This document shows, piece by piece, positions 4,144-35,924 of a DNA stretch of 64,000 bases. Location of the stretch: positions 2,189,501 to 2,253,500 of the forward strand of contig NZ_CP139979.1 in NCBI RefSeq assembly GCF_034424525.1, read 5' to 3'. This DNA is from Sphingobium yanoikuyae (GTDB taxonomy: Bacteria > Pseudomonadota > Alphaproteobacteria > Sphingomonadales > Sphingomonadaceae). Under the pieces are notes generated by a model. That model did no database searches. It worked only from the letters and a program-made list of their open reading frames with translations, and was not told where the DNA came from. Made by a program: the position numbers and the translations under genes. Positions within the stretch are counted from its first letter, which is position 1; each line of letters opens with the position of its first letter.

Positions 4144-5040
4144 TCAGTCAGGCATCTTCATCGCTCCGTCCAGATAGTCGAGAAAAGCGCGCACCCGCGC
4201 AGCGGTGCGGTCTTCTGCGGCGTAGAGGGCGTGAATATCCTCGCCGTCGCCGGGGTTATAGTCGGCCAGCACTTCGACCAGGCGCCCCGCCCTGATGTCG
4301 CTGGCGACATGGAAATGGCCGTGCCGGGCGATGCCGCCGCCGGCGATCGCCATCTGGCGTACCACTTCGCCCGAATTGCCGTAGAAGCTGCCCTGCACCG
4401 GTCGCTGCACCAGCTTTCCGCCGATGCGGAACGGCCAGCCGTCGATCGAGCGGCGGAAGCTGAAGCGCAGGCAGTCATGATCGTCCAGATCGTCCGGCGT
4501 CTGCGGCGTGCCGCGCCGGGCAAGATAGGCCGGGCTCGCCACCAGCACCATCGCGCTATGGCCCAGCTTCTTCGCCCGCAGGCTGGTGTCGCGCAGCGGG
4601 CCGATGCGGATGGCGATATCGGCCCGTTCCTCGACCAGATCGACGATCGTGTCGGACAGGGTCAGGTCCACCGTCACCGCCGGATAAAGTTCTCGGAAGC
4701 CGGGCAGGATCGGGATCAGGCATTCGATGCCGAAGGAGGGCGAGGCGTTGATCCGCAGCAGCCCGCGCGGCGTCGTGCGATCCTCGCCCAGCCCCGCCTC
4801 CAGCGCCATCATGTCGCCCAGCAGCACCGCCATCCGGTCGCGATAGGTGACGCCCTCCGGAGTCAGCGCCAGCGCGCGGGTGGTCCGCCGCAGCAGGGTG
4901 ACACCCAGCCGCTGTTCCAGTCGCGCGATCGACCGGCTGACCGCCGATGGCGTCAGCCGCAGCGCCTTGGCCGCCGCCGCCAGACTGCCCTCGCCCGCCA
5001 CCATCAGGAAGGTTTCGATGTCGCCGAACCGGTTATCCAT
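4144..5040 (-). CDS. LysR-family transcriptional regulator
   Basis: This 298-residue regulator has an N-terminal winged HTH (residues about 4-62, containing GSLAAAAKALRLTPSAVSRS) and a periplasmic-binding-like effector domain. It belongs to the large CrgA/DmlR-type group (RINASPSFG and FRRSIDGWPF signatures). It is divergent from the SDR gene at 5143, and the 102-base gap holds an inverted repeat. The usual inference is that it controls that SDR gene and itself. Effector unknown. Confidence 0.92.
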   Translation of the reverse strand: MDNRFGDIETFLMVAGEGSLAAAAKALRLTPSAVSRSIARLEQRLGVTLLRRTTRALALTPEGVTYRDRMAVLLGDMMALEAGLGEDRTTPRGLLRINASPSFGIECLIPILPGFRELYPAVTVDLTLSDTIVDLVEERADIAIRIGPLRDTSLRAKKLGHSAMVLVASPAYLARRGTPQTPDDLDDHDCLRFSFRRSIDGWPFRIGGKLVQRPVQGSFYGNSGEVVRQMAIAGGGIARHGHFHVASDIRAGRLVEVLADYNPGDGEDIHALYAAEDRTAARVRAFLDYLDGAMKMPD

Positions 5041-21598: not shown

Positions 21599-21667
21599 GA
21601 AATTCGCCAGTATGATTTGCGCGCGACCATAGCGTGACAGGCGCGGGGAGCAATGGGCAGTATCGGT

Positions 21668-25727: not shown

Positions 25728-26372
25728 TCAAACCCGGATCAGCCCGCCCCTGACCGCATAGCCGCGATAGAGCGTCCGGACATGGGGGAAGCCGCCCATA
25801 TCCTGTGCCAGCCGGTTGATCGCGCCGTTGAGTTCGCGCCGGGGCGAAACGTGGAACCGCTCCAGCCAGCCGAACAGCGCCCGTTTCCAGAGCGCTGGCA
25901 GTTCGTCCTGCTGGCCGAAATCCACGATCTCCAGCTTGCCGCCGGGCGCCACGCAGCGCGCCGCCTGGACCAGCGCCATTTCCCATTCGGGGATCATCGA
26001 CAGCGCATAGCTGATGAACACCCGCTCGAAGCTCGCCCGACCGAACAGCGCCTGCGGATCGAAGCCGCAGGCATCGCCCTGCGCCAGCGTCACCTGATCC
26101 GCCATGCCCGCCTTCGCGACCGAAGCCCGCGCGGTGTCCAGCATCGCATCGCTGATATCGACGCCATAGAGCCGCGCCTTGGGCCATGCCTTGCCGACCG
26201 CGATCAGGTTGCGGCCAGTGCCACAGCCAATCTCCAGCACAGCGCCGCCGGCGGGCGGATCGAGATCGGCGATCAGTCCGTCACGGCCCAGCAGATAATA
26301 TTTGCGGGTCAGGTCATAAATGTGCCGCTGGTAGCGATAGACCCCGTCCATCAGCTGCCCATGACCACTCAT
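25728..26372 (-). CDS. btaB: Betaine-lipid N-methyltransferase BtaB
   Basis: This 214-residue class I methyltransferase has VLEIGCGTGRNLIAVGKAWP as its SAM motif and the BtaB-type opening YRYQRHIYDLTRKYYLLGRD. BtaB adds three methyl groups to diacylglycerylhomoserine to give the phosphorus-free membrane lipid DGTS. Its ATG overlaps the btaA TGA (ATGA, 26369-26372), so the pair is translationally coupled. The symbol rests on this pairing as much as on sequence, because BtaB alone resembles other small methyltransferases. Confidence 0.85.
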   Translation of the reverse strand: MSGHGQLMDGVYRYQRHIYDLTRKYYLLGRDGLIADLDPPAGGAVLEIGCGTGRNLIAVGKAWPKARLYGVDISDAMLDTARASVAKAGMADQVTLAQGDACGFDPQALFGRASFERVFISYALSMIPEWEMALVQAARCVAPGGKLEIVDFGQQDELPALWKRALFGWLERFHVSPRRELNGAINRLAQDMGGFPHVRTLYRGYAVRGGLIRV

Positions 26373-27592
26373 GCGTCGGCGCCCTTCAGCACATAGAGAT
26401 GCACGCCGCCATAGATGGCCGACCGGTCGCGCGCGGTATAGTCCCGCGAGGCATCGGCCCGATAATCCCAATGGGCCAGCACATCATCGGCAACCCGGCC
26501 GGGCAGGATGCTGGGTTCGCCAGCCGTGCGGAACAGCACGCGGGCGCCGGGCTTGGCGGTGCGGGTAATCTGCGACCAGAGCGCGTTCAACTGCTCGTCA
26601 TCCATCCAGTCCTGCGCGTCGAGCAGGATATAGCGGTCGCACGATGCCGCTGGCTGGTTGGCGAGGAAGTCGGTGAAGTTGATATGACGGACATCGACCC
26701 GCTCGGCCCGGTCGCGCACCGCGCGATGATTGGTCGCCTGCAGATAGGGCGGCAACGGTCCCTCGCCACCTGCATAGCCACGGCCGAACGCCTGAACCGC
26801 GAAATAATTGTCCTGCAGGTCGAAGTCGCAGGCCAGTTTCTTCAGCCGCGCCTTCAGCACATTGTCCATCCGGTCGTCGCCGGCCAGCGCCTCGAACTGG
26901 GCAGGCGGGATGCCGAGGCCGAACAGCGAGGCTGGCTGGCTGGTCAGCCAGCGGACGAAACCCTTGTCGAAGATCGGCGCCAGTTCGCGCTCGAAGATCG
27001 CAAGCTGTTCGTCACGGCTTTGCGCGTCCAGCATCCGCTTGGGGTTCACGCCATGCAGCCGGGCGAGCAGATGGGCTGCGCCGATGAAGCGGCCGAGCAG
27101 GCCATGCCTGTAGATGCCCCGCGCAAAGCCGCCGATGCGGCGGCGACCGGTCATGTCGCGGCCTTCCCAATAGCGGCGCGTCGCCTCATCCAGGCGCGGC
27201 GCCACGATCTCGCGATAGGCGGCGATATTCGCCTTGTCGTCCGCCCGCGCGAAGAAGCGGTGGAAGGCGGCATGATCGGGCAGCGCCTGCGCCGCCATCA
27301 GCTTCAGCCGGTTAAGCGCGATATGCGCCGTATTGAGGTCGACCGCGGTGATCTTCGCCGGATCGGCGGTGAGATAGGACAGAACATTGCAGCCGCCCGA
27401 CGCGATCGTCACCACATGGCTGTCGGGCGTGATCGCCAGCGCTTCCATGTCGACCGCCGGGTCTTCCCAGATCTGGGCATAGACTAGGCCACGGAAGGCG
27501 AAGGTGAAGGCGCGTTCCAGCAGCCCCTGCTTCGACAGATGGCGGTGACGATGTACTGCGTTGGTGACTTTCTTGTGGGCCGATGCGGCCAT
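26369..27592 (-). CDS. btaA: S-adenosylmethionine:diacylglycerol 3-amino-3-carboxypropyltransferase BtaA
   Basis: This 407-residue DUF3419-family enzyme moves the aminocarboxypropyl group of SAM onto diacylglycerol, the first step of DGTS betaine-lipid synthesis known from Rhodobacter sphaeroides. Diagnostic stretches are GLVYAQIWEDPAVDMEAL, TIASGGCNVLSYL (SAM site), AVDLNTAHIALNRLK and the C-terminal LDAQDWM region. The start at 27592 (MAASAHKKVTN) gives the usual length. A three-unit Pho-box-like repeat lies 62-90 bases upstream. Confidence 0.9.
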   Translation of the reverse strand: MAASAHKKVTNAVHRHRHLSKQGLLERAFTFAFRGLVYAQIWEDPAVDMEALAITPDSHVVTIASGGCNVLSYLTADPAKITAVDLNTAHIALNRLKLMAAQALPDHAAFHRFFARADDKANIAAYREIVAPRLDEATRRYWEGRDMTGRRRIGGFARGIYRHGLLGRFIGAAHLLARLHGVNPKRMLDAQSRDEQLAIFERELAPIFDKGFVRWLTSQPASLFGLGIPPAQFEALAGDDRMDNVLKARLKKLACDFDLQDNYFAVQAFGRGYAGGEGPLPPYLQATNHRAVRDRAERVDVRHINFTDFLANQPAASCDRYILLDAQDWMDDEQLNALWSQITRTAKPGARVLFRTAGEPSILPGRVADDVLAHWDYRADASRDYTARDRSAIYGGVHLYVLKGADA

Positions 27593-27653
27593 GGGCGCAC
27601 TCCTCGCTGCCGGGTCGTTCGGTCGGCCGATAGGGCAGACGCGTGTCGTGCGC

Positions 27654-27682
27654 ATGACCGCCCGATGACGCAACGATGACGG
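27654..27682 (-). promoter_or_regulatory. Pho-box-like triple direct repeat upstream of btaA
   Basis: Read on the minus strand, CCGTCAT, GCGTCAT and CGGTCAT begin exactly 11 bases apart with 4-base spacers. The PhoB consensus is CTGTCAT-N4-CTGTCAT, so each unit matches at 5-6 of 7 positions. The nearest edge is 61 bases from the btaA ATG, a sensible activator position. The same DNA lies 42-70 bases upstream of the divergent exonuclease gene. Confidence 0.65.
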
Positions 27683-27724
27683 CCCTTGCGGAACCGGGAC
27701 CGCCCCTCCCATCTTCTGCATCTG

Positions 27725-28717
27725 ATGGCGCACTGGATCGAACCCCACCCCACCGGCATCTATGTCCGCCCCGCCAATGCGTGGATCGACCCGTCCCAGC
27801 CGCAGGAACGGGCGCTCGTCACCCATGGCCATGCCGATCATGCGCGTGGCGGCCATCGCCATGTCTGGGCCACGCGCGAAACGCTTGCGATTATGGCGCT
27901 GCGCTATGGCACGGCCAGCGGCACGGCGGTCGGCTATGACGAAGAGATCAGGCTGGGCGGCGTCACCATCCGCTATGTCCCCGCCGGTCATGTGCTGGGG
28001 TCGGCGCAGATCATCCTGGATCATGCCGGCGAGCGGGTGGTGGTGACCGGCGACTACAAGCGCCGCGCCGACCCCACCTGCCTGCCGTTCGAACCCGTCC
28101 CTTGCGACATCTTCGTGACCGAGGCGACCTTCGGCCTGCCCGTCTTCCGCCACCCCGACACCGGCAGCGAGATGGACCGGCTGCTCCATGCGCTCCATGC
28201 CAATCCCGATCGCTGCGTGCTGGTCGGCGCCTATGCGCTGGGCAAAGCGCAGCGGGTGATCTGCGAGTTGCGGGCGCGCGGCCATCATGACCCCATCTAT
28301 ATCCATGGCGCGCTCGAACGCATGTGCGCGCTCTACCAGGATTTAGGCGTCGACATGGGGCAGTTGCGCGGCGCGACTGGCGTGGCGGCCAAGGATATGC
28401 GCGGCGCGATCGTGCTGGCGCCGCCCTCCGCGCTCAACGATCGCTGGAGCCGTCGCCTGCCCGACCCGATTGCCGCCATGGCGTCAGGCTGGATGCGGGT
28501 GCGCCAGCGCGCCCGGCAGCGCAATGTCGAACTGCCTTTGGTCATTTCCGACCATGCCGACTGGGACGAACTGACCGACACGATCCGCGAGGTCGCGCCG
28601 AGCGAGACCTGGATCACCCATGGCCGCGAGGAAGCCCTGCTCCACTGGTGCATGACCCACCAATATCGCGCCCGCGCGCTCGCGCTGGTAGGCCGCGAGG
28701 ATGAGGAGGAAGGGTGA
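27725..28717 (+). CDS. Ligase-associated DNA damage response exonuclease (MBL fold)
   Basis: This 330-residue metallo-beta-lactamase/beta-CASP protein has the metal motif THGHADHARGG (HxHxDH), a GDYKRR motif with the metal Asp, and a terminal SDHADWDEL. It matches the exonuclease that accompanies ATP-dependent DNA ligases in bacterial ligase-associated repair loci; relatives act on 3' ends or RNA. The ligase gene follows after a palindromic repeat. The start at 27725 (MAHWIEPHPTGIYV) fits the family. Confidence 0.87.
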   Translation: MAHWIEPHPTGIYVRPANAWIDPSQPQERALVTHGHADHARGGHRHVWATRETLAIMALRYGTASGTAVGYDEEIRLGGVTIRYVPAGHVLGSAQIILDHAGERVVVTGDYKRRADPTCLPFEPVPCDIFVTEATFGLPVFRHPDTGSEMDRLLHALHANPDRCVLVGAYALGKAQRVICELRARGHHDPIYIHGALERMCALYQDLGVDMGQLRGATGVAAKDMRGAIVLAPPSALNDRWSRRLPDPIAAMASGWMRVRQRARQRNVELPLVISDHADWDELTDTIREVAPSETWITHGREEALLHWCMTHQYRARALALVGREDEEEG

Positions 28718-34730: not shown

Positions 34731-35924
34731 TTGCACAAGCATCATAGCGCGCTGGGGGTAGCGACCGCCCTCACACCGGCAGCACCGGTAACGCTGATCC
34801 GTCCCGAAGCCGCAGCTCGGGCCGCCCGTTTCTTCACTGAGAAGTTTCCGGGTCGCTCGCTCTATGCAGTCAAGGCGAATCCGTCTCCTGATCTGATCCG
34901 TACGCTTTTCGATTCGGGCATCACGCATTTCGACGTGGCCTCGATCGCCGAAGTGCGTCTCGTTGCCGAAACGCTCGAAGGCAAGGCCAAGCTCTGCTTC
35001 ATGCACCCGGTCAAGGCCGAGGAAGCGATCGCAGAAGCGTACCATGTCCATGGCGTGCGCACCTTCTCGCTCGACACGATCGACGAGCTGGAAAAGATCA
35101 TGCGCGCCACCGGTGATGCGACCGATCTGGAGCTGTGCGTGCGTCTGCGCGTCTCGTCCGAACATTCGGAACTCAGCCTGGCGTCGAAGTTCGGCGCGGA
35201 GCTGGGCGAGACCCGCGAGCTGCTGATGGCAACCCGTCAGGCCGCCGATGCGCTGGGCATCTGCTTCCATGTCGGCAGCCAGGCGATGAGCCCCCAGGCC
35301 TATAGCGATGCGATCGAGCGCGTGCGCGCCGCGATCGTGGACGCAGCCGTCACGGTCGACATCATCGATGTCGGCGGCGGCTTCCCGTCCATCTATCCGG
35401 GTATGGAGCCGGTCGCGCTCGAAAATTATTTCGAGGCGATCCATCGCGGCTTTGAAAGCCTGCCGGTCAGCTACTCGTCGGAACTGTGGTGCGAACCCGG
35501 CCGCGCGCTGTCGGCGGAATATAGCTCGATCATCGTGCGCGTCGAACGCCGCCGTGGCCAGGAACTCTACATCAACGACGGCGCCTATGGCGCGCTGTTC
35601 GATGCCGCGCATATCGGCTGGCGCTTCCCCGTCGCCCTGCTGCGCGAGGATGAGAGCGAGGAAGAGTTGGAAGGCTTCTCCTTCTATGGCCCGACCTGCG
35701 ACGACATGGACCATATGGTCGGCCCGTTCATGCTCCCGGCGGACGTGAAGGTCGGCGACTATATCGAGATCGGCATGCTCGGCGCCTATGGCGCGGCGAT
35801 GCGTACCGGCTTCAACGGCTTCACCTCGGAATCGACGATCGAAGTGTCGGACGAGCCGATGGCCAGCCTCTATGCCGAAACGCTGCCGGCCCGTCGTCGC
35901 GCAACTGTCATCAAGCTCGGTTAA
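34731..35924 (+). CDS. Ornithine decarboxylase, alanine-racemase-fold type
   Basis: This 397-residue PLP enzyme makes putrescine from ornithine. It has the PLP lysine Lys48 (LYAVKANP), HVGSQAMSP (the glycine/His loop), DVGGGFPS, the EPGR phosphate-binding motif and the catalytic Cys323 (GPTCDDMD). Length is that of the short alphaproteobacterial enzyme, which lacks the AdiA-type extra domains; some relatives also accept lysine. The start is a TTG at 34731, 9 bases after GGAGG (34717-34721). The other nearby TTG is out of frame. The long leader upstream appears to regulate it. Confidence 0.93.
   Translation: MHKHHSALGVATALTPAAPVTLIRPEAAARAARFFTEKFPGRSLYAVKANPSPDLIRTLFDSGITHFDVASIAEVRLVAETLEGKAKLCFMHPVKAEEAIAEAYHVHGVRTFSLDTIDELEKIMRATGDATDLELCVRLRVSSEHSELSLASKFGAELGETRELLMATRQAADALGICFHVGSQAMSPQAYSDAIERVRAAIVDAAVTVDIIDVGGGFPSIYPGMEPVALENYFEAIHRGFESLPVSYSSELWCEPGRALSAEYSSIIVRVERRRGQELYINDGAYGALFDAAHIGWRFPVALLREDESEEELEGFSFYGPTCDDMDHMVGPFMLPADVKVGDYIEIGMLGAYGAAMRTGFNGFTSESTIEVSDEPMASLYAETLPARRRATVIKLG

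Follow-up and report, generated by a model that had tools for sequence, protein, structure and literature searches.

Sinorhizobium meliloti, which belongs to another order of the Alphaproteobacteria than Sphingobium, carries the same btaAB gene pair as the locus considered here. In that organism btaAB is described as PhoB regulated (PMC3972451) and is listed among the highly induced phosphate-stress genes (PMC8829014). In Erythrobacter sp. NAP1, from the same order as Sphingobium (Sphingomonadales) and a different genus, the betaine lipid DGTS rises under phosphorus limitation, and the portions of that paper drawn on here describe no btaA promoter (PMC4796936). The spacing within PhoB-activated promoters is described as strict (PMC10294691). 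Among the matches listed from the open-licence literature, we recognised no report of betaine lipids, DGTS or PhoB targets in Sphingobium. PhoB-controlled btaAB is already known in Sinorhizobium, and the Sphingobium array would add another case.

PhoB sites consist of CTGTCAT-like direct repeats at an 11-bp period. The E. coli pstS promoter, which we fetched as a yardstick, has GTCAT/GTCAC units at this period, one of them degenerate, as has Sphingobium btaA; its last unit (GTCAC), 7-bp gap and TCCTAT correspond in layout to unit 4, the 7-bp gap and CCCTAT of the Sphingobium promoter. The two promoters differ in the place of the degenerate unit (third in E. coli pstS, fourth in Sphingobium btaA), in the gene that they precede and in the bacterial class to which they belong.

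The predicted btaA promoter and its genes

The window (the whole stretch of Sphingobium yanoikuyae DNA that was analysed, 64,000 nucleotides) carries on its minus strand three heptamers, CCGTCAT (27682-27676), GCGTCAT (27671-27665) and CGGTCAT (27660-27654), with GTCAT cores beginning at 27680, 27669 and 27658, a period of exactly 11 bp; 61 bases lie between the nearest edge of this array and the btaA ATG at 27592. Repeat, spacing and distance are all present as the original prediction described them. That prediction overlooked two further elements on the same strand: a degenerate fourth unit, GACAC, that continues the 11-bp phase, and a -10-like CCCTAT beyond it (Table 1). A Pho box is marked by direct repeats near CTGTCAT at an 11-bp period, with at least two units, and by a fixed -10 spacing that replaces a consensus -35 element; the locus has three exact GTCAT cores plus the degenerate unit, followed after 7 bp by the predicted CCCTAT, and 7 bp is also where the gap distribution among relatives peaks (see below). 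A simple promoter scan found no sigma-70 consensus pair in 27500-27800, which fits a promoter where PhoB stands in for contact at -35.

Table 1. Predicted elements of the btaA promoter and the genes around it (window coordinates)
Feature	Position	Strand	Basis or remark
PhoB half-site unit 1 (predicted), GTCAT	27676..27680	-	letters
PhoB half-site unit 2 (predicted), GTCAT	27665..27669	-	relatives often GTAAC
PhoB half-site unit 3 (predicted), GTCAT	27654..27658	-	letters
Unit 4, GACAC, degenerate, promoter-proximal	27643..27647	-	same 11-bp phase
Predicted -10 element CCCTAT	27630..27635	-	7 bp beyond unit 4
Likely ribosome-binding site CGAGGAG	27600..27606	-	assigned by inspection
btaA, DUF3419 family, 407 aa, predicted SAM:diacylglycerol 3-amino-3-carboxypropyl transferase	26369..27592	-	PF11899 E=5.8e-112
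btaB, methyltransferase, 203 aa, predicted DGHS N-methyltransferase	25728..26339	-	Methyltransf_25 E=1.1e-18
Ligase-associated exonuclease, divergent neighbour, judged outside the unit	27725..28717	+	TIGR04122

The predicted identity of BtaA rests on its match to PF11899 (DUF3419), which we take to be the family containing BtaA, and on its constant methyltransferase partner: a btaB-like methyltransferase gene adjoins btaA in all 80 relatives (the best 80 of 143 confirmed). A BtaA-family protein thus stands next to a SAM methyltransferase, the arrangement by which BtaA/BtaB synthesis is recognised. No NCBIfam model lay above its cut-off for btaB among the matches listed (25 of 43), and a comparison of BtaA with solved structures returned no relative. 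The btaA gene of the window matches that of S. scionense at 96%, the match by which the genus was assigned in this analysis, and btaA is present in 22 of 119 family genomes. In Sphingobium sp. Ant17 (L076:4001-5216) the btaA match spans 1216 bases and its best local alignment begins late, at 4338, so the gene may be frameshifted in that assembly.

The exact GTCAT triple (zero mismatches) occurs once in the whole window, and shuffling the mononucleotides of the 132-bp btaA/exonuclease intergenic region 20,000 times never produced it. Over the 5.53 Mb of the genome, a relaxed form of the triple, GTMAY-N6-GTMAY-N6-GTMAY, turns up twice (reversed control, 0) and, with one mismatch allowed, 13 times (reversed control, 3); the exact pair GTCAT-N6-GTCAT occurs 11 times vs 0 in the reversed control, and two of the 11 are the btaA site. 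Once up to three mismatches are allowed, the window shows no excess of the triple, holding 2 against an expectation of 1.27. Elsewhere in the window a two-unit Pho-like pattern is matched, with one mismatch, at 21611-21638 (minus strand) and 35896-35923 (plus strand), in both cases probably by chance.

Conservation of the array

To score the architecture, each of the four units was given 0-5 points and the three highest values were added up, with 2 points more where TA stood at the -10 place; the maximum is 17, which the btaA promoter of the window attains. The score was devised after the btaA promoters had been seen; a set of 20 further genomes and a pstS set were scored later. The btaA relatives came from a scan of public genomes and, together with the window, were split by identity into 28 core Sphingobium loci (at least 82% identity to the window), 36 other sphingomonad loci and 17 more distant ones; two loci named Sphingobium and more distant than this threshold (L072 and L073) were put in the second group. 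The further family genomes are the 22 of 119 that have btaA, minus the window's own genome and G069. They repeat no promoter of the first set, and their longest close matches to it are 89% over 103 bp and 85% over 147 bp.

Within Sphingobium the array is strongly conserved; across the family it is common without being universal. A score of at least 15 was found before btaA in 28 of 28 core Sphingobium loci, which do not count as 28 independent events since these promoters are related, in 25 of 36 other sphingomonad loci and in 10 of 20 further family genomes. The original prediction would have been refuted by a loss of the 11-bp spacing in orthologous promoters; the architecture is kept in these numbers of loci, and among distant alphaproteobacteria in only one of 17. 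The loci scoring below 15 number 11 of 36, 10 of 20 and 16 of 17 in the other sphingomonad, further family and distant alphaproteobacterial sets, respectively, and the Novosphingobium loci L067-L069 score 11-12.

The score depends on period, gap and strand: at periods of 7-10 and 12-16 bp no locus of the core, other sphingomonad or further family sets scored at least 15; the distance from the last unit to the -10 element peaks at 7 bp, with 28, 25 and 10 loci in these sets, where no other gap gives more than 10, 5 and 1; and no antisense strand among the 81 btaA loci, and none of 15,080 random stretches taken from the same loci, reached 15. Together with the shuffles, these random stretches indicate that the three in-phase units are not a product of chance. 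A cruder test (three units, at most two mismatches, 220 bp) gave 28 of 28, 30 of 36 and 0 of 17 in the core, other sphingomonad and distant groups at period 11, and up to 4 of 28 core and 1 of 36 other sphingomonad loci at other periods. The passing arrays fall into 11 clusters in the core set and 12 in the other sphingomonad set; more than 10 differences over 51 positions separate the clusters, and the arrays are therefore not copies of one sequence.

Related promoters in the genome and genus

The genome encodes a PhoB that scores 335.9 bits against the curated cut-off of 296.2 (TIGR02154). The phoB gene lies near pstS and a PhoR-like kinase gene; the best NCBIfam match of this kinase is TIGR02966 (PhoR), at 292.4 bits, below the cut-off of 334.2. 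The pstS promoter of the same genome, which had been inspected before the pstS set was scored, has the same architecture, with a score of 15. Among the pstS upstreams of the genus (n=30, own included; pstS is present in 30 of the 31 same-genus genomes examined), 29 score at least 15 and all 30 at least 14, so that the hallmark gene of the Pho response shares the promoter type of btaA. The Na/phosphate cotransporter family has no match in the genome.

Across 61 same-genus genomes the relaxed triple matched 128 times vs 3 in reversed controls, with hits in 56 of the 61. We read 30 of these loci, at most one per genome, so that the tally of genes (gspC 14, btaA 5, pstS 1, none of these 10) does not rank targets; the 10 others include genes for a phosphate-selective porin and a DUF2490 protein, whose arrays lack TA at the -10 place. 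The architecture seen before btaA recurs ahead of gspC, a type II secretion gene, in the window's own genome (C1:2414375-2414401; L103:6376-6402); L139, L141, L143 and others likewise have a Pho-like array before gspC. Phosphate starvation of Caulobacter crescentus leads to T2SS-dependent secretion of ElpS, with which a Pho-like array before gspC is in line; the term "pho box" is absent from the main text of that study (PMC2996285).

Among the 13 one-mismatch triples of the genome, two overlap at btaA, two lie at gspC and one at pstS. A further one, at a gene for an ECF sigma factor (L113, C1:3230285), is a Pho-like array scoring 15; another, at a TonB-receptor gene (L109), scores 14 and lacks TA at the -10 place. 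The exact-pair matches in the genome likewise include btaA and a TonB-receptor gene. Six other one-mismatch triples (L108, L112, L114, L115, L116 and L117) were not counted as Pho sites; L112 scores 14 and L116 scores 15. Two of them (L108, C1:473252; L114, C1:3351348) show TGTCGCG-type repeats with a period of about 11 bp, which resemble a minisatellite or degenerate response-regulator arrays. L116 and L117 (C1:5071258-5071339), upstream of a D-Ala-D-Ala-ligase-like gene, are separated by 55 bp (5 x 11) and may form one long in-phase array.

A plcP-like metallophosphoesterase gene is present in 31 of 31 same-genus genomes; its LpxH-like NCBIfam matches are far below their cut-offs (own genome, C1:806596-807456; L205:1402-2265). 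A family-4 glycosyltransferase gene follows it, and this pair, which is kept in 29 of 30 loci, presumably resembles the plcP-agt pair of other alphaproteobacteria. The canonical in-phase array was not found before the plcP-like gene: none of 30 upstreams (30 of the 31 genes) scored at least 14, which counts against PhoB control of btaAB, for which this gene would be the expected partner. A phase-shifted variant was found instead. The order GTCAY, 20 bp, GTAAC, 7 bp, NNNTA occurs in 28 of 30 same-genus loci (L236-L265), and GTAGY-N6-GTCAY in 27 of 30, the shifted pattern having been spotted by eye in the same loci that were used for its count. The plcP-like gene probably has a conserved Pho-like promoter related to that of btaA, with the spacing changed by 2 bp. 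In Erythrobacter sp. NAP1, agt is described as lying downstream of plcP (PMC4796936).

It is possible, though we hold it only tentatively and think it rather less likely than not to be borne out, that one Sphingobium PhoB programme joins pstS, gspC and btaAB through a stereotyped promoter (three units, a degenerate proximal unit, 7 bp and a -10 element), with the lipid-recycling pair of plcP-like and glycosyltransferase genes using a conserved variant that places the upstream dimer 20 bp instead of 22 bp ahead of the proximal unit, as in 28 of 30 loci. If so, the 20-bp variant would be a new Pho-box phasing, and the phospholipase arm would be induced at a different threshold than the betaine-lipid arm.

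Proposed PhoB control and its alternatives

We propose that the array is the PhoB-activated promoter of the btaA-btaB operon, a reading to which we assign a probability of about 0.9. This proposal is well supported by sequence, geometry, conservation, the sharing of the architecture with pstS and the presence of PhoB; the predicted Pho box driving btaA thereby gains strong computational support from the orthologous promoters and from pstS. The four head-to-tail half-sites, ending 7 bp before the -10 element, would substitute for a -35 box. Under phosphate shortage, PhoR would phosphorylate PhoB; PhoB, as in E. coli, would then fill the array and recruit RNA polymerase; and BtaA and BtaB, if they act as their homologues do, would convert diacylglycerol to the phosphorus-free betaine lipid DGTS. 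The cell may in this way swap phospholipid for DGTS under low phosphate.

The proposed control leaves existing knowledge of PhoB and BtaA/BtaB action unchanged. It yields a testable prediction, namely that sphingomonads with btaAB alter their membrane when phosphate is short, and a sphingomonad Pho-box definition (period, unit number and -10 spacing) from which their Pho regulons, and with them a type II secretion operon, could be predicted.

Members of the OmpR/PhoB family bind tandem repeats, and nine PhoB-like response regulators of the genome match TIGR02154 at E<=1e-50, so that a regulator other than PhoB could bind the array in response to another signal. Only one of the nine exceeds the PhoB cut-off, however, and the same architecture stands before pstS in 29 of 30 same-genus genomes (score at least 15) as well as in E. 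coli; we regard such a substitution as very unlikely. That the array is a chance repeat, or an inherited sequence without function, is an idea that draws on the extent to which close relatives have the intergenic region in common, yet the units persist, their period unaltered, among changing spacers, flanks and neighbours, and neither other periods nor any random stretch reached the threshold; we consider this explanation scarcely credible.

The divergent exonuclease gene bears on a further alternative, in which one divergent control element serves both sides and the exonuclease and DNA ligase genes are regulated from the array as well. About 42-44 bp separate the array, which is next to a conserved block, CTTGCGGAACC (plus strand), from the exonuclease ATG, and bound PhoB could touch the exonuclease promoter. 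Its orientation and -10 element nevertheless suit btaA only: read in the exonuclease direction, none of the 28 core Sphingobium loci scored at least 15. The exonuclease adjoins btaA in 27 of 27 core Sphingobium relatives vs 0 of 36 other sphingomonad loci (for three of them the sequence covered upstream of btaA is no longer than 1.1 to 2.1 kb), and 25 of those 36, without an adjoining exonuclease, still carry an array scoring at least 15. The gene itself is found in 97 of 119 family genomes vs 22 of 119 for btaA; among 30 exonuclease upstreams (30 of the 97, own included) none has the array in the exonuclease orientation and only the own locus has it in the opposite one. The distance from the conserved block to the array also varies. 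We therefore judge a shared element to be quite unlikely, and the suggestion, made together with the original prediction, that the exonuclease comes under the same control is not supported by the orientation and neighbourhood of the array, although some effect on this gene may exist.

In the last 75 bases 5' of the exonuclease gene (L170-L198), several loci show, by eye, GGAAC(C), then about 15-16 bp, then CATAT near the ATG; this pattern, of which CTTGCGGAACC is the Sphingobium version, is perhaps a leaderless stress promoter.
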